DNA of 64,000 nucleotides from Pontiellaceae bacterium B1224 (GCA_029432815.1 JAROBA010000033.1:1-64000); one strand, 5' to 3'. Shown: positions 5,701-56,015, counted from the first letter of the stretch. The notes: generated from the sequence alone by a model not told the origin. Program-made: numbers and translations.

Positions 5701-6564
5701 ATGCAGATATCGAATAATACTACAGCGTTTAATGTTTGGAAAAATTACAAGGGCAACGTTGATAATCTTCAGGCATCCATGGCCAAGCTGTCCTCGGGCA
5801 GTCGTATTGACAATGCGGGTGATGACCCCTCCGGTCTTGCCATGAGTGAACGGCTGCGCACGCAGTCGCGCAATACATCGGCAGCTGCGTCCAATGTGGA
5901 AAACAAGCTGAATTATTTGCAGACGTCTGATTCGTGGATGCAGAAGATGCACGACATGCTCGGCCGCATGGGCGAACTCGCCGTGATGGCCAACGATGGA
6001 ACGAAGTCGGATGTCGACCGAACAGTGCTGCAACAGGAATTCGCGCAGATGCAGGACGAAATCGCCCGGATTACAACGGGATCGAACGCTGCGGGAAAAT
6101 TTAATGGTATTGCTCTCTTTCAAGGCGGTACCGGAATTACTCAGCAGGTCGGTGCCGATGGAGGCCAGACCTTTACATCTGCAGTGATGGACCTGTCTAC
6201 AGCAAATGCAGACGATCTGGGCAGTGGTACCACCTGGGGGCAGCTGGTCGACAGCGCGGGAACCATAAATATTTCCGACCAGATTAATGCTGACGCTGCC
6301 GTCACCGATTTGCAGCTGGGGATCGATTATCTGAGCCAGAAGCGGGCCGATGTGGGGGCGGAGATAAGCCGGATGGATCAAACCCTCGCGGGACTCCGCA
6401 GCTACGAAGAAAATATTGTGGCCACGGAAAGCCGGATTCGCGATGTGGATGTCGCGAAGGAAACTGCGGAGATGACAAAATACCAGATTCTGCAACAGGT
6501 CGGTACGGCCATGCTTGCCCAGGCCAACCAGCTTCCGAACAATGTTATGCAACTATTCGGCTAA
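5701..6564 (+). CDS. fliC: flagellin (third copy)
   Basis: A 287-residue flagellin starting MQISNNTTAFNVWKNY, with a Shine-Dalgarno site TAAGGAG. It shares the conserved termini with the flagellin at 368 but differs in the central region (about residues 130-210) and ends QLPNNVMQLFG instead of [11 protein letters not shown]. Like the other copy it lacks an outer variable domain. It lies 45 nt after csrA with no clear promoter of its own, so it is probably co-transcribed with fliW-csrA from the sigma-54 promoter at 4825. The leader lacks the CsrA hairpin found before the flagellin at 368, so the copies may be regulated differently. Confidence 0.97.
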   Translation: MQISNNTTAFNVWKNYKGNVDNLQASMAKLSSGSRIDNAGDDPSGLAMSERLRTQSRNTSAAASNVENKLNYLQTSDSWMQKMHDMLGRMGELAVMANDGTKSDVDRTVLQQEFAQMQDEIARITTGSNAAGKFNGIALFQGGTGITQQVGADGGQTFTSAVMDLSTANADDLGSGTTWGQLVDSAGTINISDQINADAAVTDLQLGIDYLSQKRADVGAEISRMDQTLAGLRSYEENIVATESRIRDVDVAKETAEMTKYQILQQVGTAMLAQANQLPNNVMQLFG

Positions 6565-7323: not shown

Positions 7324-8050
7324 CAAAAAGGATGGAACTGTGGTTTTGAATGCCAATGTACTGGTTTTGGATGATGAGCCGCTGGTTCGGCTGATGATCT
7401 GTACGAAGCTGGAGCAGGTCGGTGCGCTGGTCAGCGAAGCGGCTTGCTGTGCAGATGCTTTGAGGCTGGCCCGGAATACGGATTTTGATGTCGCTCTGTT
7501 TGACTACCGGCTGCCCGATGGCGATGGACTCGATTTGGTTCGCCAGTTGCGCAGAGAAGGTTTCTCGCTTCCGATTGCCATGCTCAGTGGCGAGGCGGCG
7601 GATATCGAGGCGGAAGCAGGGAACGATCTGGGGATCTGTGCCGTATTTACCAAGCCGCCCGATGTGACGAAGATTGCCGAAACTCTGGCTCGTGAGGCCG
7701 CGTGCCAAGCGGTACAGAAAACGGAGTATGTGGGACGTTATGCTTATTGGCAGGCCGATCCGAATGGAATGGAAGCTTTTGCTGAGTGGTCGAATAATGA
7801 ATGGCTGGCTATTGATCTTTCGCTCTGGGGGGATGTCCCGCTCCCCGTCTGTTTAATGGAGTGCATTGAAATGCCGCACCTTGGTGTTGCCGTTGTCGGT
7901 GCAAGCCAGGCGATGCATGAAGGGTTTAAAAGGATGGGATCAGAGATTGAGTTTGTAGCTAATGTGGACGAATTGGCTGCCTTGTCGCGCCGGCCGTTCT
8001 CCCCTTTGGAGCGGGCCGCTCTCCTGGAGGTTCCGCAGTTGCGGTGTTAA
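7313..8050 (+). CDS. response regulator with C-terminal domain of unknown function
   Basis: A 245-residue protein. Residues 14-130 form a receiver domain: acidic pair D20/D21, phospho-acceptor D64 (ALFDYRLPDGDG), a serine in MLSGE, and the lysine in TKPP. Residues 135-245 match no output domain I recognise. They contain YAYWQADPNGM, two Trp-rich segments and LGVAVVGASQAMHEG, with no helix-turn-helix or catalytic motif visible. The gene overlaps the LysM gene and is followed 10 nt later by a TPR-like gene. It may link phosphorylation to the envelope proteins of this operon (inference). Confidence 0.8.
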   Translation: MNSSKKDGTVVLNANVLVLDDEPLVRLMICTKLEQVGALVSEAACCADALRLARNTDFDVALFDYRLPDGDGLDLVRQLRREGFSLPIAMLSGEAADIEAEAGNDLGICAVFTKPPDVTKIAETLAREAACQAVQKTEYVGRYAYWQADPNGMEAFAEWSNNEWLAIDLSLWGDVPLPVCLMECIEMPHLGVAVVGASQAMHEGFKRMGSEIEFVANVDELAALSRRPFSPLERAALLEVPQLRC

Positions 8051-24434: not shown

Positions 24435-25460
24435 ATGAATGCAATAAACGTGTCGGAGCAGGCATTGGTTTCTCAAAAAATGACGCCGGAAAAACGAGTG
24501 GCGGTTGTACTCGCCAGTCTGGAACCGGATGTGGCGGCAAAGGTGATGCGGGAACTTGATCCGCATATAATGACCCGGGCGGCAGAAAGCATTCGCAGTC
24601 TGGGTATTGTGCCGGGCAACCTGTTCAGGAAGGCCATTGCTGAAAGCCTGCAGGAGCTTCAGGCCTACAACGATGCTGTTCATGGAAACGACAGTCTTGC
24701 GGTTGGTTTGCTCAGTAAGGTGGTTGGCGAACAGCAGGCAGCCTCGATGCTGGAACTCGGGCAAATGGCCGGGAACCGCTTTGGTGCATTGGTCTCCCGA
24801 AAACCGGAAGAAATTGCACGAATGTTAGCGGCGGAATCTTCGAGCGTGGTGGCCGTGGTCATGCGCTTTCTGCCTTCACAGCTGGCCTCCGAAACCCTTT
24901 CGCATATCAGTGAAGACGTGCGGCGTAAAGTTGTGCTGCAAATCGCAACCGCAGAGCTTCCATCGGAGCGGGTCATCGACCAGATTGAGCAGCAGCTGGT
25001 GTCGCGTCTGCCGGCCTCCGTTAAGAGAAAGCAGGATGACAAGGAGCGCATCGACTCGCTGGTTTCCATTATGCAGCGTTCCTCCAAAGAGGTGGCGGAT
25101 GCCATGCTCGAAGAGCTCAGTAAACAGGATTCCGCGCTGGCTGATCTCGTTCGCGACCGCATGTTTGTATTCGAAGATATTGCCCGGTTGGATGATGCCG
25201 CTGTGAGGCGGATCATGCAGGAACTCGAGACGGGAATTCTATCTACGGCACTCCGTAAAGCTTCAGACGAAGTGCGCAACCGCTTTCTTTCCAATATGTC
25301 GCGCCGTGCGGCTGACGGGCTTCAGGAAGAAATGGAATATGCCGGGAAAATGCCTTTCTCAGAAGTGCTCGCCAAACAAAAGGAAGTCGTGCAGGTGGCA
25401 CGGACACTGGCGGAACAGGGCGAAATTAAGATTGGTTCTTCGGAGGAGGAATATGTCTAA
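24435..25460 (+). CDS. fliG: flagellar motor switch protein FliG
   Basis: 341 residues. The N domain binds FliF (TPEKRVAVVLASLEPDVAAKVMRELDP). The middle domain is near residues 115-195. The C-terminal torque domain contains FEDIARLDDAAVRRIMQELE and FLSNMSRRAADGLQEEMEYAG, with the charged Asp-Asp and Arg residues in the stator-facing helix. The ATG directly follows the fliF stop codon, so the two are translationally coupled. It overlaps fliH by 8 nt. Confidence 0.96.
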   Translation: MNAINVSEQALVSQKMTPEKRVAVVLASLEPDVAAKVMRELDPHIMTRAAESIRSLGIVPGNLFRKAIAESLQELQAYNDAVHGNDSLAVGLLSKVVGEQQAASMLELGQMAGNRFGALVSRKPEEIARMLAAESSSVVAVVMRFLPSQLASETLSHISEDVRRKVVLQIATAELPSERVIDQIEQQLVSRLPASVKRKQDDKERIDSLVSIMQRSSKEVADAMLEELSKQDSALADLVRDRMFVFEDIARLDDAAVRRIMQELETGILSTALRKASDEVRNRFLSNMSRRAADGLQEEMEYAGKMPFSEVLAKQKEVVQVARTLAEQGEIKIGSSEEEYV

Positions 25461-26070
25461 CACAATTTTTATCGATACCGATGTGCTGGCCTTTGTTCCG
25501 TCGTCGTTGGCGGAAGACAATAGCACATTCGCTGATCAGGTGGATACAGCCGAACTCGAGCGTGAGCTTCGGGCTGAACTCGAAGCTGAATATGAGCAGC
25601 GGCTGGAGCGTGAAGTGACTATCCGGCTGGCGGGTGAGCGCCGGAAGTTTGATCAGGCGCTGAACCAATGCATGACCAGTTTTGACCAGTGCATTAACAC
25701 CCTGCGCAAGGAAATTCAGTCCAATGTGGTAGACCTTTCCATTCGCATGGCAGAGGTCATTGTCCGGCACGAACTGCCCGACCGGGATATGCTGCATAAT
25801 TTAATCGTGAAAACCCTCGAACCCGTATCAGATCTGCAGGGGGCTCTCGTGCGTTTGAGTTCCAGTGATTGGAAGTTATTCGGGGAACAGATCAGCAGCG
25901 GCGACCACCTTGGTGTGGGCAGTACCGTACAGTTTGCTGAAGACCCGAACCTTTCCGCCGGCGATGTGATTGTGGAAAGCCGTAACGGCATCTTTGATGC
26001 CCGTTTAGACGAACGTCTAAAGCTCTTAAAGGAAACGTTACATGAACGCAGCGGCAGAAAACTTTCATAA
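25453..26070 (+). CDS. fliH: flagellar export stator protein FliH
   Basis: 205 residues from ATG 25453 (GAGGAGGAAT upstream, overlapping the fliG end). A central Glu/Arg-rich coiled coil (ELERELRAELEAEYEQRLEREV) and a C-terminal V-ATPase E-subunit-like domain (VDLSIRMAEVIVRHEL, AGDVIVESRNGIFDARLDERLKLL) are typical. FliH links the FliI ATPase to FliN at the C ring. A longer in-frame extension inside fliG is not expected to be translated. Confidence 0.9.
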   Translation: MSNTIFIDTDVLAFVPSSLAEDNSTFADQVDTAELERELRAELEAEYEQRLEREVTIRLAGERRKFDQALNQCMTSFDQCINTLRKEIQSNVVDLSIRMAEVIVRHELPDRDMLHNLIVKTLEPVSDLQGALVRLSSSDWKLFGEQISSGDHLGVGSTVQFAEDPNLSAGDVIVESRNGIFDARLDERLKLLKETLHERSGRKLS

Positions 26071-27382
26071 CCTACTGGCATTCGACGATCTCTTCCAGGG
26101 ATTGGAAGCCTCAACGCTGGCGCGCTCCGAAGGGCGCGTGGTGGAAGTGGCCGGGCTTACCGTGAAATCAGTAGGGCCGCATGCTTCGATCGGCGATCTG
26201 GTATGGATCGAACCGCTGTATGGTGACGGCCAGCGACGGATTCCGTGTGAGGTGGTGGGATTCCATGATCGCTATGTGGTCTCGATGCCGGTGGAACGCC
26301 TTGGACGCGTTCATCCGGGCGCACGTGTCATTCCGGGCGGCCGCATGAAAGTGGGGGTTGGCAGCGAACTGCTCGGGCGGGTCGTTGATTTTATGGGCCG
26401 ACCGATCGATGACGGGCCCGAGCTGCAGGGACTGCAGCAGGTCGATATCGAACGCGATGCGCCGCCGGCCATGACTCGCCAGTCGCTTTCCTCTGTTTTC
26501 GAGACCGGAGTCCGTGCCATTGATGGCGTGTTGACCTTGGCCAAAGGGCAGCGCGTGGGGATCTTTGCCGGCAGCGGAGTGGGCAAGAGTGTGCTGATGG
26601 GCAGTCTGGCGCGTAATGCGCGTTCAGGTGTGAATGTGATTGCGCTCATCGGGGAACGCGGCCGCGAGGTGAAAGAGTTTATTACCCGCAACCTCGGTGA
26701 AGAGGGATTGCGGCGTACGGTGGTTGTGGCGGTCACATCCGACCAGTCTCCGGTCAGTCGTCTGAAAGGCGCTTCAACAGCCATGACGATTGCCGAATAT
26801 TTCCGCGACCAGGGCGAAGATGTGATGTTGATGATGGATTCCGTGACTCGTTATGCCATGGCACAGCGCGAAATCGGCCTGGCAGTGGGAGAGCCGCCAA
26901 CGACCCGCGGATATCCACCCAGTGTGTTCAGCCTGTTGCCGCAGCTGCTGGAACGAGCGGGAGCATCAGACAAGGGAACAATCACGGCCTTCTATACCGT
27001 GCTGGTTGAATCGGATGATATGAACGACCCCATTGGTGACAGTGTGCGGGGAATTCTCGATGGTCATATTGTGCTTTCTCGAAAAATTGCCTCAATGGGC
27101 CATTACCCGGCCATCGATGTGCCGGTGAGTCTGAGCCGATTAATGAGCGAGATTGCAACACCCGAGCACAAAGAGCTTTCGTCCCGGTTGCGATCATTGC
27201 TGGCGGTCTATCAGAAGGCGCAGGATCTGGTGAATGTGGGCGCTTATGTTTCGGGGAGTAATCCGCAGATCGATGAATCGCTGGCCCGTATCGAAGGCAT
27301 CAATGCCTTTCTTCAGCAGAAACCTGAAGAACGCGAGGGGTTCGAGGCCATGCAGAACATGCTTAGAAAGGTGCTTGTATGA
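26042..27382 (+). CDS. fliI: flagellum-specific ATPase FliI
   Basis: 446 residues, related to F1 beta. Walker A GSGVGKS lies at 177-183, followed by VIALIGERGREVKEF, and Walker B is DVMLMMDSVTRYAMAQRE. It energises docking and unfolding of export substrates. AAAGGAAAC stands before the ATG, which lies inside the fliH end (29-nt overlap). It is followed by fliJ through an ATGA overlap. Confidence 0.97.
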   Translation: MNAAAENFHNLLAFDDLFQGLEASTLARSEGRVVEVAGLTVKSVGPHASIGDLVWIEPLYGDGQRRIPCEVVGFHDRYVVSMPVERLGRVHPGARVIPGGRMKVGVGSELLGRVVDFMGRPIDDGPELQGLQQVDIERDAPPAMTRQSLSSVFETGVRAIDGVLTLAKGQRVGIFAGSGVGKSVLMGSLARNARSGVNVIALIGERGREVKEFITRNLGEEGLRRTVVVAVTSDQSPVSRLKGASTAMTIAEYFRDQGEDVMLMMDSVTRYAMAQREIGLAVGEPPTTRGYPPSVFSLLPQLLERAGASDKGTITAFYTVLVESDDMNDPIGDSVRGILDGHIVLSRKIASMGHYPAIDVPVSLSRLMSEIATPEHKELSSRLRSLLAVYQKAQDLVNVGAYVSGSNPQIDESLARIEGINAFLQQKPEEREGFEAMQNMLRKVLV

Positions 27383-27828: not shown

Positions 27829-28418
27829 AGATACTGTGTTTATTGATGAGTTTAGTGATCGCCATATTATCCGGTTTGTTGATTTTTACCGCTCAGTCCG
27901 GGCATTTTCCGATGTCGCAAGTCGCTGAAACGGACGAAATTCCTGTGGTGGAAGAGAGCAAGACCGTCAAAACGCTGATCAGCTCGCAGATCGGTTTAGT
28001 TGACGAGTTGGTGGAATCCCTGCAAGTGGCGCGCGAAGAACTGGATGCCAGCAAGCTGCGCCTCGACAAACGCGAGAAAAATCTTCAGGAGCTCTATTCC
28101 ACCTATCTGAAGCTCCGTCAGGAAACCAGCCTGTTGATCGAGGATTTTGAAAGTCAACTGGTTAAGGTGGAAGAAAGCGAATTTAAGAATTGCAAGAAAC
28201 TGTCGGGGGTTTATTCGAAGATGGATCCCGCCTCGGCGGCACAGTCTCTCAAGCACATGGAAGCAGAGCGCGTGGCCTTGATTCTTAGCCAAATGGAAAG
28301 TCGTGCTATGGCGGCCATCATGGAGGAAGCGGTTACGATCTCGGTGGATGGAAGCGAATCTGTTGCACAGTGGTCGGATGCAATCCGACGGCTGAATGAA
28401 AATAAGGGTGAAGCGTAA
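27825..28418 (+). CDS. motE: MotE-like protein (FliG/MgtE-like C-terminal fold)
   Basis: 197 residues. N-terminal membrane helix (ILCLLMSLVIAILSGLLIFTA), a periplasmic coiled coil (about 70-125) and a C-terminal domain with YSKMDPASAAQSLKHMEAERVALILSQMESRAMAAIMEE. That motif is the MgtE_N/FliG-M-like fold of MotE, a periplasmic chaperone of the stator protein MotC in epsilonproteobacteria. Similar genes lie between fliJ and fliK in many other genomes. The symbol is by family resemblance. Confidence 0.75.
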   Translation: MKILCLLMSLVIAILSGLLIFTAQSGHFPMSQVAETDEIPVVEESKTVKTLISSQIGLVDELVESLQVAREELDASKLRLDKREKNLQELYSTYLKLRQETSLLIEDFESQLVKVEESEFKNCKKLSGVYSKMDPASAAQSLKHMEAERVALILSQMESRAMAAIMEEAVTISVDGSESVAQWSDAIRRLNENKGEA

Positions 28419-29623
28419 TGAGCAAAATGGAGTCCATGTTGGAGGTAACACCGCAGTCAGCCAAGATTCCGAAAAAAACTGCAGATGGCGCAGGAGGAAA
28501 GTCGAGTGTTGACTTTTCAGCGTTTCTGGCAGCTCCGCTGGCTGAAGGCGAAAGGTTCCAGAGTTTGGAAGAAACGCTGAAGGTTGACGGAGAAGTGTTC
28601 CAGAGTCCGGAAGAAACCCCGGAGGCTGCCGGAAAGGTTTTCCAGGGTCAGGAAGAAACGGCGAAGGTTGCCGCAAAGGTTTTTCAGGATCTGGAAGAAA
28701 TCCCGGAGGCTGATGGAAAGATTTTCCAGGGGCCGGAAGAAACGCCGAAGGCTGGCGGAAAGGTTTTCCAGAGTCTGGAAGAAGCGCCGAAGGTCGCCGG
28801 AGAGGCTTCCCCGGGGGTGAAAAAAAAGCCGTTGGTTGAGGGTAAGGTTTCCCAGAGTCTGGAGGAAACGCCGAAGGTTACCGGAGAAATTTTTCAGGAG
28901 GCGGAACATGTGTCGGCAGCCGCTGAAGAGGCTTTCCAGAGTCTGGAAGAAACTCCCGCCCGGAAACCGGCCAAGGTCAATGAGGCGGAATACGCTTTTA
29001 CTGAGGTTTTTATACCGGTTTCAGAGCATCGGGTTTTTCGCAGGATGGCCATGCGACCGCAGTTTGAAGTGGCTGCAGAGCCGGAATCAGCGGCATCGCT
29101 GACAGCATTGGAAGGAAAATCCGCCCTTCCAACGGATGTTGCTTCACGGGCACCTGTTCAGCAGGAGGTCCCTGTTCTGCAACCCAGTCTGGTGAACGAA
29201 AAAACCATTCGCCTTGAGCAGCTGGCCGATCGGTTTGATCAGCGGTTGCTTTCGATGGTTCAGGGCAATGAGAAGGTAATGCGGATTACGGTTCAGCCCG
29301 CCACTATGGGGCGTTTAACGATTATGTGCAGAGAGGAAAATTCAACGCTGTCGGTTGAAATTGTTGCTCAGACCAGTGGCGTTCGGGAATTGATTGCCGG
29401 ACAGGAGGATGCTGTTCGACGTCTGATGCAGGAGCATTCTGTTGAGTTGGGAAGCTTCGATGTGTTGATGGATCAGGGACAGAGCGGCGAGCGTAAATTT
29501 GGAGCCGGCACTTCGTCGGATCATCCCGATGCCCGTGGCACCGCTCCTGCTTTGAATGAGGGTGAAGATCCGCATGCCTTTACGCATGTGCATAAGAGCG
29601 GTGCAGTTTCTTTAATTGCTTAA
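28418..29623 (+). CDS. fliK: hook-length control protein FliK with an internal 14-residue repeat array
   Basis: 401 residues. The C-terminal Flg_hook domain (about 265-370; VMRITVQPATMGRLTIMCREE, VRRLMQEHSVELGSFDVLM) interacts with FlhB for substrate switching. Residues 44-183 are ten tandem 14-residue repeats with consensus GKVFQSLEETPKVA. The N-terminal part of FliK acts as a molecular ruler, so repeat number could set hook length (inference). The repeats are less conserved in the seventh and ninth units. The ATG overlaps the motE stop. Confidence 0.88.
   Translation: MSKMESMLEVTPQSAKIPKKTADGAGGKSSVDFSAFLAAPLAEGERFQSLEETLKVDGEVFQSPEETPEAAGKVFQGQEETAKVAAKVFQDLEEIPEADGKIFQGPEETPKAGGKVFQSLEEAPKVAGEASPGVKKKPLVEGKVSQSLEETPKVTGEIFQEAEHVSAAAEEAFQSLEETPARKPAKVNEAEYAFTEVFIPVSEHRVFRRMAMRPQFEVAAEPESAASLTALEGKSALPTDVASRAPVQQEVPVLQPSLVNEKTIRLEQLADRFDQRLLSMVQGNEKVMRITVQPATMGRLTIMCREENSTLSVEIVAQTSGVRELIAGQEDAVRRLMQEHSVELGSFDVLMDQGQSGERKFGAGTSSDHPDARGTAPALNEGEDPHAFTHVHKSGAVSLIA
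28547..28966 (+). repeat. ten 42-bp tandem repeats inside fliK
   Basis: Each unit is 42 bp and encodes a version of GKVFQSLEETPKVA. The FQSLE part is written TTCCAGAGTCTGGAA or a near form, which is the same interrupted palindrome (TTCCAR-N3-YTGGAA) found dispersed in the window. The units at about 28557, 28764 and 28935 match it best. Confidence 0.85.
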
Positions 29624-41935: not shown

Positions 41936-42557
41936 AATACAAGACAACAGTATTGAAGGAGCTCTGTCAGTCTCATCGTGACTAATACACATGATGGTAT
42001 CGAGCGGGGGAAAGCAATGTCCGGAGCTCTTTTTCGAAATTTTTTTAAATAAATCTCGCCCGGTACCGCACGCCGCAGTCGGTGCATGGATTGTCTGCTT
42101 CAGCACAGGAATCCATCGCTGGAGGTGGTGTTGCCACCCGAAAAAAAACGATGTAAACCTTCTGTGAATTACCGGATGGAAATCCGCAATCTGTTTGCGT
42201 ACATCTTTTCATCGTATTTTTCTGCAGTCTCTGTGGTAAGAGACTGCATTTTAGCAGGAAGAGGAAAACGCTTCTCTATTCGTGAAATATCCGAGTTAGG
42301 GAGAGCTGAGCTCTTCTTGCTCTGAATCAAAAAGACCCCTGCCGTATGGGGAAACCGTTTCCAAATGCCGCGTTTGCTCCGTTCGTGCGGCCCCGCCGTC
42401 CCGCATTTCCAATCATTGGAAAGTAATAAAAAGAAAAACTTGGCGCAGGTATCCGGCTTTCCATACAATCTCTAAGTTAGATCGTTGCTGTCGGCGAACG
42501 AATGCGAATGGCTGGAAAACAAGACCCGGTTGTTTCCGGGCCAGAAAGGAGTACAGG
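41936..42557. other. 622-bp intergenic region after the flagellar cluster
   Basis: No convincing gene. It holds one perfect dispersed palindrome (42407-42421), two GAGCTC-containing segments (about 41959 and 42024) followed by a T-rich stretch near 42030 that could terminate the flgF operon, and a half-copy of the palindrome (TTTCCAAATG) near 42358. A 79-codon open frame at 42086-42325 lacks a ribosome site and coding character. The promoter of the next gene is presumably near 42450-42530. Confidence 0.5.
42407..42421. repeat. dispersed palindrome TTCCAA-N3-TTGGAA (perfect copy)
   Basis: TTCCAATCATTGGAA, perfect 6-bp arms around TCA, 136 bp upstream of the zinc-ribbon gene at 42558. Confidence 0.7.
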
Positions 42558-43791: not shown

Positions 43792-43806
43792 TTCCAAGGT
43801 TTGGAA
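43792..43806. repeat. dispersed palindrome TTCCAA-N3-TTGGAA (perfect copy)
   Basis: TTCCAAGGTTTGGAA ends 1 bp beyond the stop codon of the minus-strand autotransporter-type gene, between two convergent genes. Confidence 0.7.
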
Positions 43807-49307: not shown

Positions 49308-50218
49308 AGTATTCCGCCCATTTTATCATCGGGCCGACCGCATCCGGAAAAAGTGGCGTGGCGCAATATATCGCCGAGCGCGAAGGGCAGTTGATTGTCT
49401 CGGCCGATTCCATGAACCTCTATCGCGGGATGGATATCGGTACTGCCAAACCGACTTCCAGTGATCGGGAAACTGTTGACTACGCTGGCATCGATCTCGC
49501 CGAACCGACCGAAAAATTCAATGTCGCGGCTTATCTGAATGCGGTGCGCCCATCCTTTGAATCTGGAAGGGAAGTTGTTGTGGCCGGTGGCACCGGGCTC
49601 TACGTCAAATGTCTGACGGAAGGTTTCGACGATGTGGCTCCCGAAAACTCCAACCTTCGGAAAGTGCTCGAAGCTCTCGATTTCCAAACCCTGGAAAAGC
49701 GCGCCAAAACCGAAGCCGCCGAACTCTATGCGAGTCTGACTGAAGACGATCAGCAAAACCCTCGTCGCCTCATCCGCATTCTCGAACGTACCGCAGGCGT
49801 CCCGCCTGCCCCGCAGAGCGGTTCATGGAATTCGGCTCCCAAACCCAAACTGGTCGGCCTTCACGTCGAACGCGAAATTCTGTTGCAGCGGATCGAGAAG
49901 CGCGTTGAAGAAATGTATGCAACCGGCCTGCTGAAAGAAGCAGAAGCGCTGCTCAAACTCAATCTCTCCCAAACCGCGCTGCAGGCCATCGGCTATGCCG
50001 AAGCTTTCGGTGTGCTGAACAACGAATGGTCGTTGGAGGAAGCCAAAGAAAAAACCATCATCCGCACGCGGCAGCTCGCGAAACGTCAGATGACCTGGTT
50101 CCGGAATCAGCTCAATATTGAGTGGATCAATACCGCCGACTTCCAAACCTTGGAAAATATCGCCACCGCCGTTTCCAATGCCTGGAAAAAAACCGGCCCA
50201 ACTCCAATTATGTTGTGA
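49304..50218 (+). CDS. miaA: tRNA dimethylallyltransferase
   Basis: 304 residues. P-loop GPTASGKS (10-17), SADSMNLYRGMDIGTAKP and AGGTGLYVKCL are MiaA motifs. The enzyme adds an isopentenyl group to A37 of UNN-decoding tRNAs. The gene contains three copies of the dispersed palindrome. Two encode FQTLE, near residues 127-131 and 280-284, and the third is in the C-terminal tail. That tail beyond the last conserved core (about residue 275) looks like sequence added by the repeats. Confidence 0.95.
   Translation: MKYSAHFIIGPTASGKSGVAQYIAEREGQLIVSADSMNLYRGMDIGTAKPTSSDRETVDYAGIDLAEPTEKFNVAAYLNAVRPSFESGREVVVAGGTGLYVKCLTEGFDDVAPENSNLRKVLEALDFQTLEKRAKTEAAELYASLTEDDQQNPRRLIRILERTAGVPPAPQSGSWNSAPKPKLVGLHVEREILLQRIEKRVEEMYATGLLKEAEALLKLNLSQTALQAIGYAEAFGVLNNEWSLEEAKEKTIIRTRQLAKRQMTWFRNQLNIEWINTADFQTLENIATAVSNAWKKTGPTPIML
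49682..49696. repeat. dispersed palindrome inside miaA (one mismatch)
   Basis: TTCCAAACCCTGGAA, read in frame as FQTLE. Confidence 0.6.
50141..50155. repeat. dispersed palindrome inside miaA (perfect copy)
   Basis: TTCCAAACCTTGGAA, read in frame as FQTLE, near the 3' end. Confidence 0.7.
50173..50187. repeat. dispersed palindrome inside miaA (one mismatch)
   Basis: TTCCAATGCCTGGAA, 17 bp after the previous copy and read in a different frame (SNAWK). Confidence 0.6.
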
Positions 50219-50292
50219 ACCACGAAATACACTAAATACACGAAAGGCTTACCGGATGAATTATTTTCGTGTGTTTAGTGTATTTCGTGGTT
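50218..50292. repeat. 28-bp inverted repeat between miaA and hflX
   Basis: Arms 50218-50245 and 50265-50292 are reverse complements with one mismatch, around a 19-nt loop. The arm is AT-rich and periodic (CACGAAATACACTAAATACACG). Similar CACGAAATACAC-type sequences recur in genomes of this bacterial group (from memory, not checked). It could be a REP-like element, a terminator-like hairpin for miaA or a small mobile remnant. It fills almost the whole intergenic gap. Confidence 0.75.
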
Positions 50293-50302
50293 AGGAAAAA
50301 GA

Positions 50303-51604
50303 ATGTCTGAATTATACGAAATGAAAAATGATGATGCCGAAACCGTTCTCCTGATTGGAGTCGTTCTTCGTAACGAAGAAGAGTGGAAGGTGAAGGACAC
50401 GATGGATGAGCTGGCCCAGCTGGCCGAAAGTGCCGGCGCTGCCGTGACCGGGCGTTTCATTGTTCGTCAGCAGAAAATCAAGGCCGGTCATTACATCGGT
50501 ACCGGCAAAGCTGCAGAGATCGCCGACTGGATCAAAGAGAACCGCGTTTCCATGGTGGTGTTCGACGACGATCTGACTCCGGCGCAAGGCCGAAATCTTC
50601 AAGAGGTATTTGAAACGCGTGTGCTCGATCGTACCCAGCTCATTCTCGACATCTTTGCCCAGCGCGCTCAGACCAAAGAAGGGTGTCTGCAGGTAGAGCT
50701 GGCGCAGCATCAATACCTGCTTCCACGTCTCAGAAACATGTGGACTCACCTTGAGCGTCAGAAGGGTGGCATCGGTCTGCGTGGTCCGGGGGAAACCCAG
50801 CTCGAAATGGACCGCCGCCGATTGGATGATCTGGTCCGCACCCTTAAGCGCGACCTCGCTCTCGTGCGAACCCGCCGAACCGAACAGCGCCGCGGTCGTC
50901 GCCGTCATGGCTGGGCGCTGGTCTCGATTGTCGGATACACCAATGCCGGTAAATCGACGCTGCTCAACCGCCTGTCCGGTGCCGAAATCTATGCGGAAAA
51001 TCAGTTGTTCGCCACGCTCGATCCGACCACGCGCCAGGTGGAGCTGCCGAATCATGAGCCGACGCTTATGACGGATACGGTGGGCTTTATTCAGAAACTG
51101 CCGCATCATCTCGTCGATTCATTCAAAGCCACGCTCGAAGAGGTGGTTGAAGCGGATCTGCTCGTGCACGTGATTGATGCTTCGCACCCGCAGGTCGATA
51201 TTCAGATTGAAGCCGTACACAAAGTGCTCGATGAGATCGGCGGGCTCGATAAACCGATGCTCTACGTCTTTAATAAGATTGATTTGGAGCGGGGCCGTAA
51301 TGCCGCCAAACGTCTGATGCGCCAGTTCCCGAAATCGGTGGCAGTTTCCGCGCAGGATGGGGAAAATATTGATATCCTTTTTGACGAGCTGGCCGACTGC
51401 CTGAAAGGCCGCAAGGTTGAGATGAAACTGTCCGTTCCGCTCAGTGAAGGAAAGCTGCTTGCGACCCTGCAGAAGAATGCATCGATCCTTGAGCAGGAAT
51501 ACGAAGGTGCCAACGCCGACCTGCTCGTTCGCGTTTCCGCCCAGCTCGCCGCTCAGTGCCGTCCTTTTTCAACTGAGGAGGAGCCGCCGGAGCCAGAGTG
51601 GTAG
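50303..51604 (+). CDS. hflX: GTPase HflX
   Basis: 433 residues. N-terminal HflX domain (about 15-205; VVFDDDLTPAQGRNLQEVFETRVLDRTQLILDIFAQRAQTKEG), then GPGETQLEMDRR, and the G domain with G1 GYTNAGKST (211-219), DTVGFIQKLPHHLVDSFKATLEE and NKID. HflX binds the large ribosomal subunit and rescues stalled ribosomes. In frame the ATG gives MSELYEMKND. The miaA-hflX order is common (hfq is absent between them here). Its 3' end overlaps the convergent gene by 36 nt. Confidence 0.95.
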   Translation: MSELYEMKNDDAETVLLIGVVLRNEEEWKVKDTMDELAQLAESAGAAVTGRFIVRQQKIKAGHYIGTGKAAEIADWIKENRVSMVVFDDDLTPAQGRNLQEVFETRVLDRTQLILDIFAQRAQTKEGCLQVELAQHQYLLPRLRNMWTHLERQKGGIGLRGPGETQLEMDRRRLDDLVRTLKRDLALVRTRRTEQRRGRRRHGWALVSIVGYTNAGKSTLLNRLSGAEIYAENQLFATLDPTTRQVELPNHEPTLMTDTVGFIQKLPHHLVDSFKATLEEVVEADLLVHVIDASHPQVDIQIEAVHKVLDEIGGLDKPMLYVFNKIDLERGRNAAKRLMRQFPKSVAVSAQDGENIDILFDELADCLKGRKVEMKLSVPLSEGKLLATLQKNASILEQEYEGANADLLVRVSAQLAAQCRPFSTEEEPPEPEW

Positions 51605-52234
51605 GCGCGCCTTGGATGGTTCTTTTTTAGCGGGCTCTATCGGGGCCTCTGTATCGTCGGCGTTGCATTTTTCCTGACTTAAAATGCAACGCATAACTTT
51701 TTCTTCTTTTCGCCGGCGGAAGCGGTGAAGGGTGCGCCGGAAGGATTTGATGATGCCGAGAAACACGACGGGTGAGGCGATGATGATCAGCGTGGTTTCA
51801 TCGAACGGAATGCGATGCTCAATATAGAGAATGCCCATCAGTCCCGGTACCAGCGAGTGACCAGGTGCCCCGAAAAATTCGGCAATCCAGGGGCGGAACG
51901 ATCGGCGGATTCCGGCGTTAATCAAAAACAGCCCATAAAGAAAAAGCATCAGAACCAAGGCCAGATTTCGGAGTCCGAAATAGGTGCCCTCGTCGACATC
52001 CTGAGCAAATGGGGAAAGCATATACGCGGTGAAAACCAGAGTGATTCCTGTCGACATCACATTGGTATGCCCGTGGGCTTCATCACTGTGGATGATGAAA
52101 TACAGCTCCGTAATCAACCACGCACCAATCAGAGGCAGATAGACCAGCGGTTCATCAACCACGATTTTGGCAATATCGATTATTCGGTGATAAACGAGGG
52201 ATAAATCCATTGGGATATTTTGAGAAGAAAACAT
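51569..52234 (-). CDS. multi-pass membrane protein of unknown function
   Basis: About 221 residues from ATG 52234 (other in-frame ATGs at 52258 and 52210; no clear ribosome site decides). Four hydrophobic segments (about 30-52, 62-83, 93-115, 146-165) and a charged cytoplasmic tail. A His-Ser-Asp-Glu-Ala-His-Gly-His segment between the first two helices could bind metal (inference). No family recognised. It converges with hflX, overlapping by 36 nt. Confidence 0.7.
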   Translation of the reverse strand: MFSSQNIPMDLSLVYHRIIDIAKIVVDEPLVYLPLIGAWLITELYFIIHSDEAHGHTNVMSTGITLVFTAYMLSPFAQDVDEGTYFGLRNLALVLMLFLYGLFLINAGIRRSFRPWIAEFFGAPGHSLVPGLMGILYIEHRIPFDETTLIIIASPVVFLGIIKSFRRTLHRFRRRKEEKVMRCILSQEKCNADDTEAPIEPAKKEPSKARLPLWLRRLLLS

Positions 52235-52327
52235 ATTTCGTAAACGGTTAAGACGCACCGTATCGAAAATAGTTCATCATGATCAACCTGCATATTCACG
52301 ATTGAGCTCGATTGAGGGATCAGTTGT

Positions 52328-54616
52328 TTAGAGCAACCCGCGTGAAAAGTTGAGCGGATCGCCGGCAACGGGTTTGTCGGAGAGGATGTCGCTGACGAGC
52401 CTGGCGGCTTGTTCGGGTGAATCGATGCCGTAGCAAAGATCAATCCGGAAGTGGCGGGCGCCGAAGGCTTTCAGATCGTCCAGCTGGTCGGCCAGGGAAA
52501 AGGGCGTGGTGTTCACCAATACAAATTCGCGGCCGTTGGTTTCGGTGCGGAAGGTGCGTTGCGAACGGTCGGTCAGTTCGCCGCTTTCCGTTTCGGGACG
52601 CGTGGCGGAAATCATCAGCGGGGAATGCTGGAAGATGGGAACGATGGCCGCTGAACCGAGCTGCTGCGTCAGCGCAAATATATTTTCCGCGTCGTCCTCG
52701 GGGGAAAGTACAAATTGACGAATCCCTTGTTCCTTCCAGTGCAGTGCGGCCTGCGTGTTCAATGTGTAAAGCGGCCAGTCGGCGGTGATATCCTTTTTCC
52801 CTTCGAGCAGGTTGAGGCCGCCGAGATTGGCGGCCTCCCATTTCCAGACCTTGGAAAATCGGGCAATCAGTTCGCGAAAGCGGTCGGTGTCTTCATCGCG
52901 AATAATCACGGGAAGCGCCAGGCGCAGTTGGTCGGGATAAGCTTTGATTGCTTTTTCAATCTCTTCCGGATGGTCGGGATCGATCTCCAGCAGAAATTCA
53001 TCGATGTGTTCAACCGGATAAAAACGTCGGGCTTTCACTGACCAGCAAATGTCGTCGGAAGTAGGCTCCAATGAAACAGTTCCAAGGGTTGGAAGTTCCG
53101 GTTCGGTTTCGTTCCAGACCGTGGAAAATGCTGCGATCAGCGTTCGGCGGGCTTCGTTCAGGACGGAGGCCGGCGCAAAGATGGCCGGACCTTCGAGTGT
53201 GAGTTGCCCGAGTTGCCAGTCGGTATCGCCCAGCTTGCCGAAACATTTTTCCAGCGCGGTGGAGGCTTTGTCGGGCTGTTTTGCTGCTTCGAATGGGCCG
53301 GGTAGGGTGAGGGAGTGCTGGACTGTATTCGCCGATGCGGTCATCACGATTTGTTCCAATGATTGGAAAACGTGAATATTCACGGCGCGGCGCTGGCGAT
53401 AGAGTCCGGGCCTTGGTGCGGTGATGTCGTAGCGTTGCCGAACAGACTGCGAGTAGGAGCAGTAGACGGGCGCTCCAATTTCGAGGTAGGGCGAGTCGGA
53501 CGGAAGCTTCAGCGCTATGTCGGCATTGGCGGGAAGCTCGAAGCGTCGTTTCTTTTCGGGGTCCGATTCCAGTCGCATTTCATTGGCGGCAAAACCGTAG
53601 GCCGAGGTTTTTCCGGCCATTTCAATTTTGAGTCCGTCGCGTTTCTGCAGGGCGCGGTTGCTGTGCAGCATCAGCCAAGGGCCTTTGACTGTGGCGACGG
53701 TGCCGATCTGCGTGCCGCGGTGTCCGTCGTTGATCGGATCGATGGGGCGGGTGGCGTCGTCACTAAGGTAGAGGTCGGTGGCGGGCCGGCCGAATATGGT
53801 TTGTATGTCAGCGATTCGCTCTCCGGCATTTTCTATTTTTCCTTCAAGGCTTTGGCGGTAGAAATCGGTGACGGCGGCGACGTAGAGCGGGCTCTTCATG
53901 CGGCCTTCAATCTTGAGGGCGGACACGCCGGCGCTAATCAGTTTTTCCAGATGATCGGCGGCGGAAAAATCTTTCATTGAAAAAGGGAGGTTGCGCTGTT
54001 CGCCGCTATTGAAGGGCTGACGGCAGCAATAGGCGCAGCGTCCGCGATTGCCGCTGCGTCCCAGCAGATGGGATGAAAAGAGGCAGAGACCGCTGTAGGA
54101 ATAGCAGAGTGCGCCGTGAATGAAGACCTCAGTCTCTATGCTGCATTCTCGTGTGATGTGTTCGATGGTTTTTACGCTCAGCTCGCGGGCGAGTACGACG
54201 CGCTTGAAACCAATCGAAGCGAGCTGCTGCGCGCCTTCCAGATTATGGACGGCCAGCTGGGTGCTGGCATGCAGGTTGAGCTGAGGAAAGTTTTGGCGGA
54301 TCAGGTGAGCGATCCCCATGTCCTGCACAATCACGCCGTCTGCATTGAGGTCGCGGATCAGGGCGAGCGCCTCCAGTGCATCGTCGAGATCGCGCTGCTG
54401 GACGAGGGTGTTGAAGGTGATGAAGACGCGGCGGCCGAGGTGATGGGCATAGCCGATCATTTCATCGAGCGCTTCCACGGAAAAATTGCCGGCTTCTGCG
54501 CGGGCGGAAAAGCGGGGCAGGCCGGCATAGACGGCGTTGGCGCCGTAGGCCAGTGCGGCCCAGGCGGCTTCCGGGGTGCCAGCGGGCGCGAGCAGTTCAG
54601 GGAGTTGTGTTTTCAT
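52328..54616 (-). CDS. U32 peptidase-family protein (RlhA-like, with DUF3656-type C-terminus)
   Basis: 762 residues. The N-terminal half is classic U32: ELLAPAGTPEAAWAALAYGANAVYAGL, HASTQLAVHNLEGAQQLASIGFKRVVLARELS, EVFIHGALCYSYSGLCLFSS and RGRCAYCCRQPF, with clustered cysteines, and GVSALKIEGRMKSPLYVAAVTDFYR. E. coli RlhA, of this type, hydroxylates 23S rRNA. The C-terminal half is variable and carries four copies of the dispersed palindrome in several frames (52842, 53080, 53112, 53354), suggesting it tolerates insertions. Confidence 0.88.
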   Translation of the reverse strand: MKTQLPELLAPAGTPEAAWAALAYGANAVYAGLPRFSARAEAGNFSVEALDEMIGYAHHLGRRVFITFNTLVQQRDLDDALEALALIRDLNADGVIVQDMGIAHLIRQNFPQLNLHASTQLAVHNLEGAQQLASIGFKRVVLARELSVKTIEHITRECSIETEVFIHGALCYSYSGLCLFSSHLLGRSGNRGRCAYCCRQPFNSGEQRNLPFSMKDFSAADHLEKLISAGVSALKIEGRMKSPLYVAAVTDFYRQSLEGKIENAGERIADIQTIFGRPATDLYLSDDATRPIDPINDGHRGTQIGTVATVKGPWLMLHSNRALQKRDGLKIEMAGKTSAYGFAANEMRLESDPEKKRRFELPANADIALKLPSDSPYLEIGAPVYCSYSQSVRQRYDITAPRPGLYRQRRAVNIHVFQSLEQIVMTASANTVQHSLTLPGPFEAAKQPDKASTALEKCFGKLGDTDWQLGQLTLEGPAIFAPASVLNEARRTLIAAFSTVWNETEPELPTLGTVSLEPTSDDICWSVKARRFYPVEHIDEFLLEIDPDHPEEIEKAIKAYPDQLRLALPVIIRDEDTDRFRELIARFSKVWKWEAANLGGLNLLEGKKDITADWPLYTLNTQAALHWKEQGIRQFVLSPEDDAENIFALTQQLGSAAIVPIFQHSPLMISATRPETESGELTDRSQRTFRTETNGREFVLVNTTPFSLADQLDDLKAFGARHFRIDLCYGIDSPEQAARLVSDILSDKPVAGDPLNFSRGLL
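52842..52856. repeat. dispersed palindrome in the U32 gene (one mismatch)
   Basis: TTCCAGACCTTGGAA. On the coding minus strand it is read as part of FSKVWK, not FQxLE. Confidence 0.6.
53080..53094. repeat. dispersed palindrome in the U32 gene (perfect copy)
   Basis: TTCCAAGGGTTGGAA. On the minus strand it is read as part of LPTLGT, a third way of translating the element. Confidence 0.7.
53112..53126. repeat. dispersed palindrome in the U32 gene (two mismatches)
   Basis: TTCCAGACCGTGGAA, 17 bp after the previous copy, the same spacing as the miaA pair. Read on the minus strand as FSTVWNE. Confidence 0.5.
53354..53368. repeat. dispersed palindrome in the U32 gene (perfect copy)
   Basis: TTCCAATGATTGGAA. 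On the minus strand it is read as FQSLEQ, the frame used in the fliK repeats. Confidence 0.7.
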
Positions 54617-54670
54617 GGGTGGGATAATAACGTATGTAGTTCAGCCTTCAGGCTGCATTCTATGAGGCCT

Positions 54671-55168
54671 TCAGCCATCGGGGAATTGGCGGCAGTATTC
54701 GTAGAGGGCGAGCGAGGTGGCGGTGGCGGCGTTATAGGAAAAGGGCATGCCCCAGACCGGGATCTCAACCACGGCGTCGAGCAGGGCTAAACACGCGTCG
54801 GCCAGACCTTCGCGTTCGGAGCCGATCACAAGCGCCGTTTTTTTCGGGAAAGCATATTCCGACAATTGGGTGGAGTTGGTGGTTTGCTCGAGGCCTACAA
54901 GCACATAGCCTTCCTGCTTCAATTTTTTGAGCACGGGCGGCAGGCTGTTTTTGACGGTCAGCTTCACGCTTTCGGCACCGTCGCGCGCAATCTTATTGAT
55001 CAGCTTGGCCTGGCCAGTGGCGATCACTTCCTGAACGCCGCAGCATCCGGCCATCCGGAAAATGGTCGAGAGGTTGACATTGCTGCGCAGGGGGCTGCAG
55101 GCGACGATCAGCGGCCTGGGCTCCGCGAGCTCACGCGGCGGTTTGTGTCGTATGTGTTCAAATTTCAT
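54671..55168 (-). CDS. TrmH/SpoU-family RNA 2'-O-methyltransferase
   Basis: 165 residues from ATG 55168 (an upstream ATG at 55195 lies inside lgt). LSTIFRMAGCCGVQEVIATG, VLVGLEQTTNSTQL, TALVIGSEREGLAD and VEIPVWGMPFSYNAATATSLALYEY correspond to SpoU motifs 1-3, which form the knotted SAM-binding fold. The usual N in motif 1 reads NVNLSTIFR. Substrate (tRNA or rRNA) cannot be told. It overlaps the lgt end by 11 nt. Confidence 0.88.
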   Translation of the reverse strand: MKFEHIRHKPPRELAEPRPLIVACSPLRSNVNLSTIFRMAGCCGVQEVIATGQAKLINKIARDGAESVKLTVKNSLPPVLKKLKQEGYVLVGLEQTTNSTQLSEYAFPKKTALVIGSEREGLADACLALLDAVVEIPVWGMPFSYNAATATSLALYEYCRQFPDG

Positions 55169-56015
55169 GGGCAAACAGCTTTTTCTTCCAGGCAATCATC
55201 AGGGCGCCGATGATCATCAGGGCCGAATAAAATTGTCCTTTGGTGATCCATCCAATGAAAAATGCCCCGTTGTCCGGCTCTCTGAAAAACTCCATGGAAA
55301 TACGGGCGAGGGCATATAAAACGAGATAGGATGCGCTCAGTGCCCCCGGTTTTTTCCCCCATCCGGTTTTCCGCAGTACCAGCATAATTCCGAAAACCAG
55401 AAAACCCTCGGTGATGGCTTGATAAAGCTGAGAGGGGTGGCGAGGCAGGAGCTGCCCCGCTTCAACCAGCTTTTCAATGGTTGGAAGTTCGTACTGTCCG
55501 TAATGAAGTCCCCGTTCCTGAGGGAAAATGACGGCCCATTTAACCTGAGTAACGCGGCCCCACAGTTCGCCGTTAATAAAATTGGCCAGACGCCCGAAGG
55601 CAAATCCGAGCGAGGTGATAACGGCCATGTTGTCGGTCAGGTTCCAGAAGGAATGCTTGTTTTTTCGTGCATACCAAACAATGAACAAAATCACACCGAT
55701 GAAACCGCCGTGACTGGCCATGCCGCCTTCCCAGACGCGGAATGCATAGGTGGGATCTTCCAGAAAAGAGCCGAAGCCATAGAAAAGGACGTAGCCCAAC
55801 CGGCCCCCGATGAAAACCCCGAAGAAGGCCAGCAGTACTACAAAATTACTGACCTCCGCCACCGGCACTTCAAAATCACCCTTTTTCGACCAGAAGCGCA
55901 GCATTAAAATGCAGGCAATAAAGCCAAGCAGATAAGACATCCCATACCATCGCAATGCAATGTCGCCATAGATCGGAAAAATGATCGGGTTAATGTTGTG
56001 GATATAATAGTTCAT
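55158..56015 (-). CDS. lgt: prolipoprotein diacylglyceryl transferase
   Basis: 285 residues with about seven membrane helices. GGRLGYVLFYG, GGMASHGGFIGVILF and FGRLANFINGELWGRVT are Lgt signatures. It adds diacylglycerol to the lipobox Cys before LspA cleavage, and lspA is in the same window. An imperfect dispersed palindrome falls within it (55472-55486), where the protein reads LPTIEKLV. It lies upstream of and overlaps the SpoU methyltransferase gene. Confidence 0.96.
   Translation of the reverse strand: MNYYIHNINPIIFPIYGDIALRWYGMSYLLGFIACILMLRFWSKKGDFEVPVAEVSNFVVLLAFFGVFIGGRLGYVLFYGFGSFLEDPTYAFRVWEGGMASHGGFIGVILFIVWYARKNKHSFWNLTDNMAVITSLGFAFGRLANFINGELWGRVTQVKWAVIFPQERGLHYGQYELPTIEKLVEAGQLLPRHPSQLYQAITEGFLVFGIMLVLRKTGWGKKPGALSASYLVLYALARISMEFFREPDNGAFFIGWITKGQFYSALMIIGALMIAWKKKLFAHEI
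55472..55486. repeat. dispersed palindrome inside lgt (one mismatch)
   Basis: TTTCAATGGTTGGAA on the plus strand; the coding strand reads LPTIEK there. Confidence 0.5.

Follow-up and report, generated by a model that had tools for sequence, protein, structure and literature searches.

The window (the whole 64-kb stretch of DNA that was analysed) carries the flagellar genes fliH, a flagellar/type III ATPase gene resembling fliI, and fliK, and further along miaA, a U32 peptidase gene and lgt. Copies of a 15-bp interrupted palindrome lie within these genes and between genes (Table 1). Matches with at most two mismatches number 26, against a mean of 3.7 and a maximum of 8 in dinucleotide shuffles. 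An earlier note had described the element as TTCCAA-N3-TTGGAA, and all its coordinates were correct on rechecking, including five perfect copies of that form, the eight copies within 49682-55486 (0-2 mismatches each) and the 17-bp gap shared by the pairs in miaA and the U32 gene. The palindrome itself stands, but the motif is better written TTCCA-R-N-S-N-Y-TGGAA, and the narrower form overlooked the perfect-arm copies in fliH, the fliI-like gene and fliK. The three fliK copies fall within a degenerate, internally repeated stretch, and the identical ones at 28766 and 28934 may have been copied by repeat duplication.

Table 1. Palindrome copies in the 64-kb window and their gene setting; "perfect" refers to the form TTCCAA-N3-TTGGAA.
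Site	Position	Strand	Setting
TTCCAACCTCTGGAA	2834..2848	.	intergenic
TTCCAGTGATTGGAA	25860..25874	.	inside fliH (25306-26070 +; Pfam PF02108)
TTCCAGGGATTGGAA	26093..26107	.	inside flagellar/type III ATPase gene, fliI-like (26042-27382 +)
TTCCAGAGTTTGGAA	28556..28570	.	inside fliK (28418-29623 +)
TTCCAGAGTCTGGAA	28766..28780	.	fliK, internally repeated stretch
TTCCAGAGTCTGGAA	28934..28948	.	fliK, internally repeated stretch
TTCCAACCTCTGGAA	35415..35429	.	intergenic
TTCCAATCATTGGAA, perfect	42407..42421	.	intergenic
TTCCAAGGTTTGGAA, perfect	43792..43806	.	intergenic
TTCCAAACCCTGGAA	49682..49696	.	inside miaA, frame FQTLE
TTCCAAACCTTGGAA, perfect	50141..50155	.	inside miaA, frame FQTLE; 32-bp pitch pair with 50173
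TTCCAATGCCTGGAA	50173..50187	.	inside miaA, frame SNAWK
	52842..52856	.	inside U32 peptidase gene (52328-54616 -), encodes FSKVWK
perfect	53080..53094	.	U32 gene, encodes LPTLG; 32-bp pitch pair with 53112
	53112..53126	.	U32 gene, encodes FSTVWN
perfect	53354..53368	.	U32 gene, encodes FQSLE
TTTCAATGGTTGGAA, one mismatch	55472..55486	.	inside lgt (55158-56015 -)

The consensus was derived from 201 copies in 508 kb of the host genome (G000), a draft of 5.38 Mb in 204 contigs from the genus Pontiella, class Kiritimatiellia. Positions 6 and 10 are a purine (A or G) and a pyrimidine (T or C) respectively, C or G occupies the centre in 96% of copies, and there is a weak preference for T on the 5' side and for A on the 3' side. 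The commonest core in this genome is TTCCAATCATTGGAA. Across all 5.38 Mb, TTCCAN5TGGAA occurs 2,237 times, or once per 2.4 kb, compared with three occurrences of the reversed control, an enrichment of ~700-fold. Comparison of genome-wide counts with random expectation had been set beforehand as a refutation test, and the counts proved far above random. The five-base spacer is obligatory: in the 508 kb it alone is enriched, with about 201-202 copies against 0-4 for each other spacer. A larger sample of 880 kb holds 369 copies against about 4. In that sample the perfect motif is enriched ~96x, single-mismatch forms with the outermost T changed 10-13x and those with G for A at position 5, the innermost base of the arm, 8.5x, while mismatches in the TCC core leave little or no enrichment. 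Such a graded mismatch profile resembles that of a binding site. The half-site centres (TCCA/TGGA) lie 10 bp apart, i.e., one helical turn, and a dyad with strict half-site spacing of about one turn is what is looked for in a nucleoid-protein site. Counts at positions 6 and 10 (AT 201, GT 69, AC 61, GC 12) give no co-variation between them (odds ratio 0.57, P=0.12), and within genes the two mixed orientations are about equally frequent (A..C 53, G..T 47). This lack of coupling, together with the equal orientations, fits a pair of heads that read double-stranded DNA independently of each other, and does not fit an RNA stem.

The earlier note had considered the motif especially dense within housekeeping genes of the 49.7-55.5 kb interval. 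This does not hold, the copies being genome-wide at 0.35 per kb in genes and 0.89 per kb between them. In the 880-kb sample, where genes were called as greedy ORFs without a trained gene finder, 276 of the 369 sites are inside genes, 82 are between genes and the rest straddle gene edges, so that 77% of classified copies are intragenic while intergenic density is 2.5-fold higher. In-gene sites show no strand preference and are evenly distributed along gene length. Their codon phases (106/98/72) extend to the whole sample the translation in three frames first noted in the window. Intergenic density per kb is 1.03 in divergent, 1.23 in tandem and 1.34 in convergent gaps. Inter-site distances are over-dispersed (CV about 1.3). 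In a relative assembled as one 3.88-Mb contig (G028), for which core positions were listed over 0-2.83 Mb, the commonest cores are evenly spread across the listed part.

In the 880 kb, the peptide pattern FQxLE occurs 90 times where residue frequencies predict 2.2, a 40-fold excess, and the reversed pattern EL.QF occurs once; 87 of the 90 are encoded by the motif, compared with ~18% expected from codon use. A second frame yields S[KNR]xW[KN], found 58 times (3 expected; 57 motif-encoded), and the P..G frame is found 59 times, 53 of them motif-encoded. FQxLE-type peptides are in this proteome almost solely owing to the motif. Orthologues of the U32 protein at 67-70% identity have sites in the same columns with different centres. 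This is the case in eight genomes for the FQSLE column at 53354, and likewise in eight for the FSxxWK column at 53112 (FSTVWN in the window). At 52842 orthologues have either the motif or unrelated residues (SKVWKWEAAN vs PDQQKWEAAN) without any insertion. Conservation at site columns is mostly below the average for the protein (0.48 vs 0.73).

Two collinear genomes, G042 and G024, were compared over 183 kb of alignment at 83% DNA identity. Twelve of 16 G024 sites (75%) are intact in G042, against 22% of random windows with all ten positions kept (P=1e-5). In the other direction, of the 31 sites in G042, 13 are unaltered in G024 and another 13 differ by one fixed base. With both directions pooled, 25 of 47 sites are kept vs 12 of 51 control half-site pairs at other spacings (P=0.003). 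Fixed bases differ in 5-8% and flanks in 19%, the fixed bases changing less than either flanks or centre. From this retention and the single-base differences it follows that sites are gained and lost by point change and kept beyond expectation. The earlier proposal that selection acts on DNA and not on protein is therefore strongly supported by the peptide, orthologue and G042/G024 data.

Sites are also arranged relative to one another. In the host genome, 149 pairs have start distances of 17-47 bp vs about 29 expected, and among 50 listed pairs 18 have a pitch of 30-33 bp where 6.5 would be expected (P=3e-5). A general 10.5-bp periodicity of pair distances was not significant in this genome (P=0.15). 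A second peak is found at exactly 17 bp (7 of the 50 listed pairs), formed by TGGAA-NN-TTCCA junctions; this spacing does not correspond to an integral number of turns. Arrays of at least three sites at 30-32 bp pitch, equivalent to three helical turns, are present in 47 of 346 genomes of the class, with none for the reversed control, and some arrays include 22-bp steps. Pooled array distances are partly biased by the choice of loci, and unselected lists give the same 31, 32 and 22 steps. Within an array the spacers differ in sequence except for the T and A adjoining the arms. Arrays are intergenic and sometimes shortly upstream of genes, so local regulation by some of them is conceivable; they are found beside genes in every arrangement (tandem in 18 cases, divergent in 6, convergent in 5) with no promoter or terminator bias, and no gene family recurs beside the arrays of different genomes. 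The motif is a spacing-strict dyad that is conserved at the level of DNA, is turned over by substitution and has a favoured inter-site spacing. In one genome (G200) a segment of locus L075 occurs twice, ~1.5 kb apart, the duplication having included its two-site array (5977-6022 and 7489-7534), and later divergence has left the sites unchanged.

Of the 388 phylum genomes sampled, the only ones rich in the motif belong to the class Kiritimatiellia. Even there it is patchy: many families have none, and members of one genus range from background to hundreds or thousands of copies. Pontiella genomes carry from 0 to 2,005, and copy number within same-genus pairs such as G276/G289 and G300/G120 differs by a factor of about 50. 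Only 8 consensus sites are present in the 4.3 Mb of G003, where G004, G042 and G024, of the same genus, have hundreds; this natural loss would help in identifying the gene responsible. The residual sites of motif-poor Pontiella were considered as a core regulon and rejected, their cores being mostly random-looking and the matches scattered. Viruses carry the motif as well, with helically spaced pairs in nine viral stretches on eight contigs. Two of these IMG/VR contigs (L223 and L224) are related phages with 79-82% DNA identity, encoding terminase, portal and head proteins, and have in common an array of approximately six in-register sites, which separates the early region from the terminase gene (L223:3034-3164 and L224:2786-2946). 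These arrays imply that phages of this class acquired or evolved the host motif. In a different class, one genome (G108; family f44, genus g96) contains the reversed control pattern, AAGGT-Y-N-S-N-R-ACCTT, 52 times vs about one expected, possibly another iterated palindrome with an N5 spacer.

In a motif repeated so often, what is being selected? The data match neither a mobile repeat nor an RNA hairpin, and neither a conventional regulon nor a signal restricted to ori or ter. Inverted arms could form a stem of 5-6 bp, but a hairpin or attenuator selected in transcripts is scarcely credible given that positions 6 and 10 do not co-vary and that G-U is not preferred over A-C within genes. Nearly as improbable is the earlier note's suggestion of a short repeat that is mobile or gene-converted, which would resemble REP, MITE or RPE elements. 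The palindromes are indeed repeated, some in tandem, and the duplicated L075 segment carried its array along. However, orthologous sites arise by substitution in place without insertion, about three-quarters of copies are inside genes, centres differ, and beyond the fixed arms copies have in common only the short T/A preferences at adjoining bases, with no long shared flanks. The REP/BIME elements of RAYT transposases are likewise abundant palindromes, some in regularly spaced mosaics, but the Pontiella motif is 15 bp, largely intragenic and created by substitution, whereas REPs are described as extragenic elements of 20-40 bp (PMC3733652). Their extragenic location and spread by transposition are at odds with the intragenic majority and in-place substitution found here. 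A dyad with helix-turn-helix-like geometry, higher density between genes and tandem sites near genes would all suit the regulon of a classical transcription factor, whether spread or promiscuous. Against this, most sites are inside genes and even along them, gap types have similar densities (1.0, 1.2 and 1.3 per kb for divergent, tandem and convergent) with no enrichment where promoters are expected, and the arrays have no recurrent neighbours; this reading is accordingly improbable. Dyad sites are also used by the homodimeric chromosome organisers MatP (matS), ParB (parS) and Noc, which have tens of sites in one chromosomal domain. The Pontiella motif has a dyad site in common with these, its homodimeric protein being putative, but its sites number in the thousands, and in G028 the cores sampled are evenly distributed across the listed part (0-2.83 Mb), where matS- or parS-type sites would be confined to one region; a chromosome-domain marker was rejected on the same distribution.

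Genome-wide selection could equally stem from uptake bias or from a methylation/repair drive. In the former, competent cells would prefer DNA with the motif, and transformation and recombination would spread copies by molecular drive, in the manner of Neisseria DUS and Haemophilus USS. Copy numbers in the hundreds to thousands, gain by point change with strong retention, patchiness among relatives and location in poorly conserved protein segments, as for DUS (PMC2397512), are all consistent with this, and the earlier note's comparison with uptake sequences holds as regards copy number, conservation and permissive placement. ComEC is present in all 63 genomes tested but equally in motif-poor ones, and being universal is uninformative. 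Uptake sequences are oriented (PMC2346458), whereas this dyad has no gene-orientation preference. Density in non-shared DNA is nearly that in shared DNA (0.18 vs 0.24 and 0.09 vs 0.12 per kb, ~25% lower), and the intergenic arrays at three-turn pitch, in phages as well as hosts, are not expected of an uptake signal. We regard uptake as a serious but unlikely explanation. A less likely one is that the site is modified by an orphan methyltransferase and that copies build up through methylation-directed repair or through a protein reading the mark, a model proposed for the cyanobacterial HIP1 (GCGATCGC), which is itself patchy among relatives, has one-base deviants concentrated at its outermost bases and is of unsettled function (PMC4390886). 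The likeness is close: both are short, over-represented palindromes at one per one to few kb (here about one per 2.4 kb), patchily present, with deviants clustered at the outer bases. The Pontiella motif nevertheless belongs to another phylum and is interrupted (5+5+5, with R/Y positions and an S centre), where a HIP-type word would be the uninterrupted GC-rich palindrome or a close alternate. Preferences at the central base, R/Y positions and flanks, and the helical pitch of the arrays, are not expected of a methyltransferase target. The methylase check covered one family, type I N6-adenine methylases (PF02384), the obvious class for a bipartite site containing A. This family is not consistently present with the motif and was rejected as the cognate enzyme, being absent from the array-bearing G289, G394 and G573 and from the motif-rich G250.

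Of the earlier note's three proposals, a site for a nucleoid or regulatory protein is the best supported. The form we prefer, at roughly even chances, is that the motif is the double-stranded DNA site of a putative, probably homodimeric Kiritimatiellia protein with a nucleoid or architectural role across the genome and not of a gene-specific regulator. With a single turn between half-site centres, a pair of identical reading heads would contact the same face of the DNA, and the base at the dyad is S. Spacings of three turns (30-33 bp) between sites are favoured, and in some species they make up arrays. The favoured spacing and the arrays together suggest that same-face dimers interact, and these may form a filament or bridge. 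The AbrB protein has a TGGNA preference, and the AbrB/MazE family (PF04014) was considered as the binder. It is absent from motif-rich genomes (G028, on one contig, and G112, G120, G191, G250, G394 and G008); many genomes poor in the motif have it, and so it does not track the motif. An autoregulated binder gene beside the arrays was also sought; no family recurred, and the single large cluster turned out to be the arrays themselves, spuriously translated. No binding protein was found by either route, via AbrB/MazE or among the genes neighbouring arrays.

Few words are selected genome-wide (Chi, uptake sequences, HIP1); those that are understood best have led to a core process. In its enrichment the present motif is an extreme case. 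The Pontiella motif joins HIP1 and the uptake sequences as a genome-wide iterated word, and what is new is the interrupted dyad, the in-register arrays and the phage-borne copies. It resembles DUS and USS in copy number, point-mutation turnover, strong retention and permissive placement in proteins, and differs in being symmetric, arrayed at three-turn pitch and also present in accessory DNA and phages. A literature search on the motif string and topic, whose coverage excluded most subscription journals, returned no earlier description in Kiritimatiellota. More tentatively, with slightly less than an even chance, this may be a previously undescribed genome-wide DNA code of Kiritimatiellia, comprising a dedicated dyad-reading protein and up to ~2,200 selected sites, with in-register multi-site assemblies and phage-borne copies, rewriting protein sequences and repeatedly gained and lost between sister species. 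Since presence of the motif varies within one genus, the responsible protein should be findable by comparative genomics or pull-down, and it would then be possible to test directly why bacteria keep identical palindromes by the thousand.

There are also consequences for annotation. In these genomes FQTLE, FSNxWK, LPTLG and similar peptides are products of selection on DNA, and arrays are translated into spurious protein N-termini. Several arrays (L074:6337-6470, L081:7091-7265, L078 and others) are open in more than one frame and give spurious extensions of the type FSNPWK...FQSLE...FPTLGK, and some annotated N-termini in Kiritimatiellia may be such array-derived extensions.
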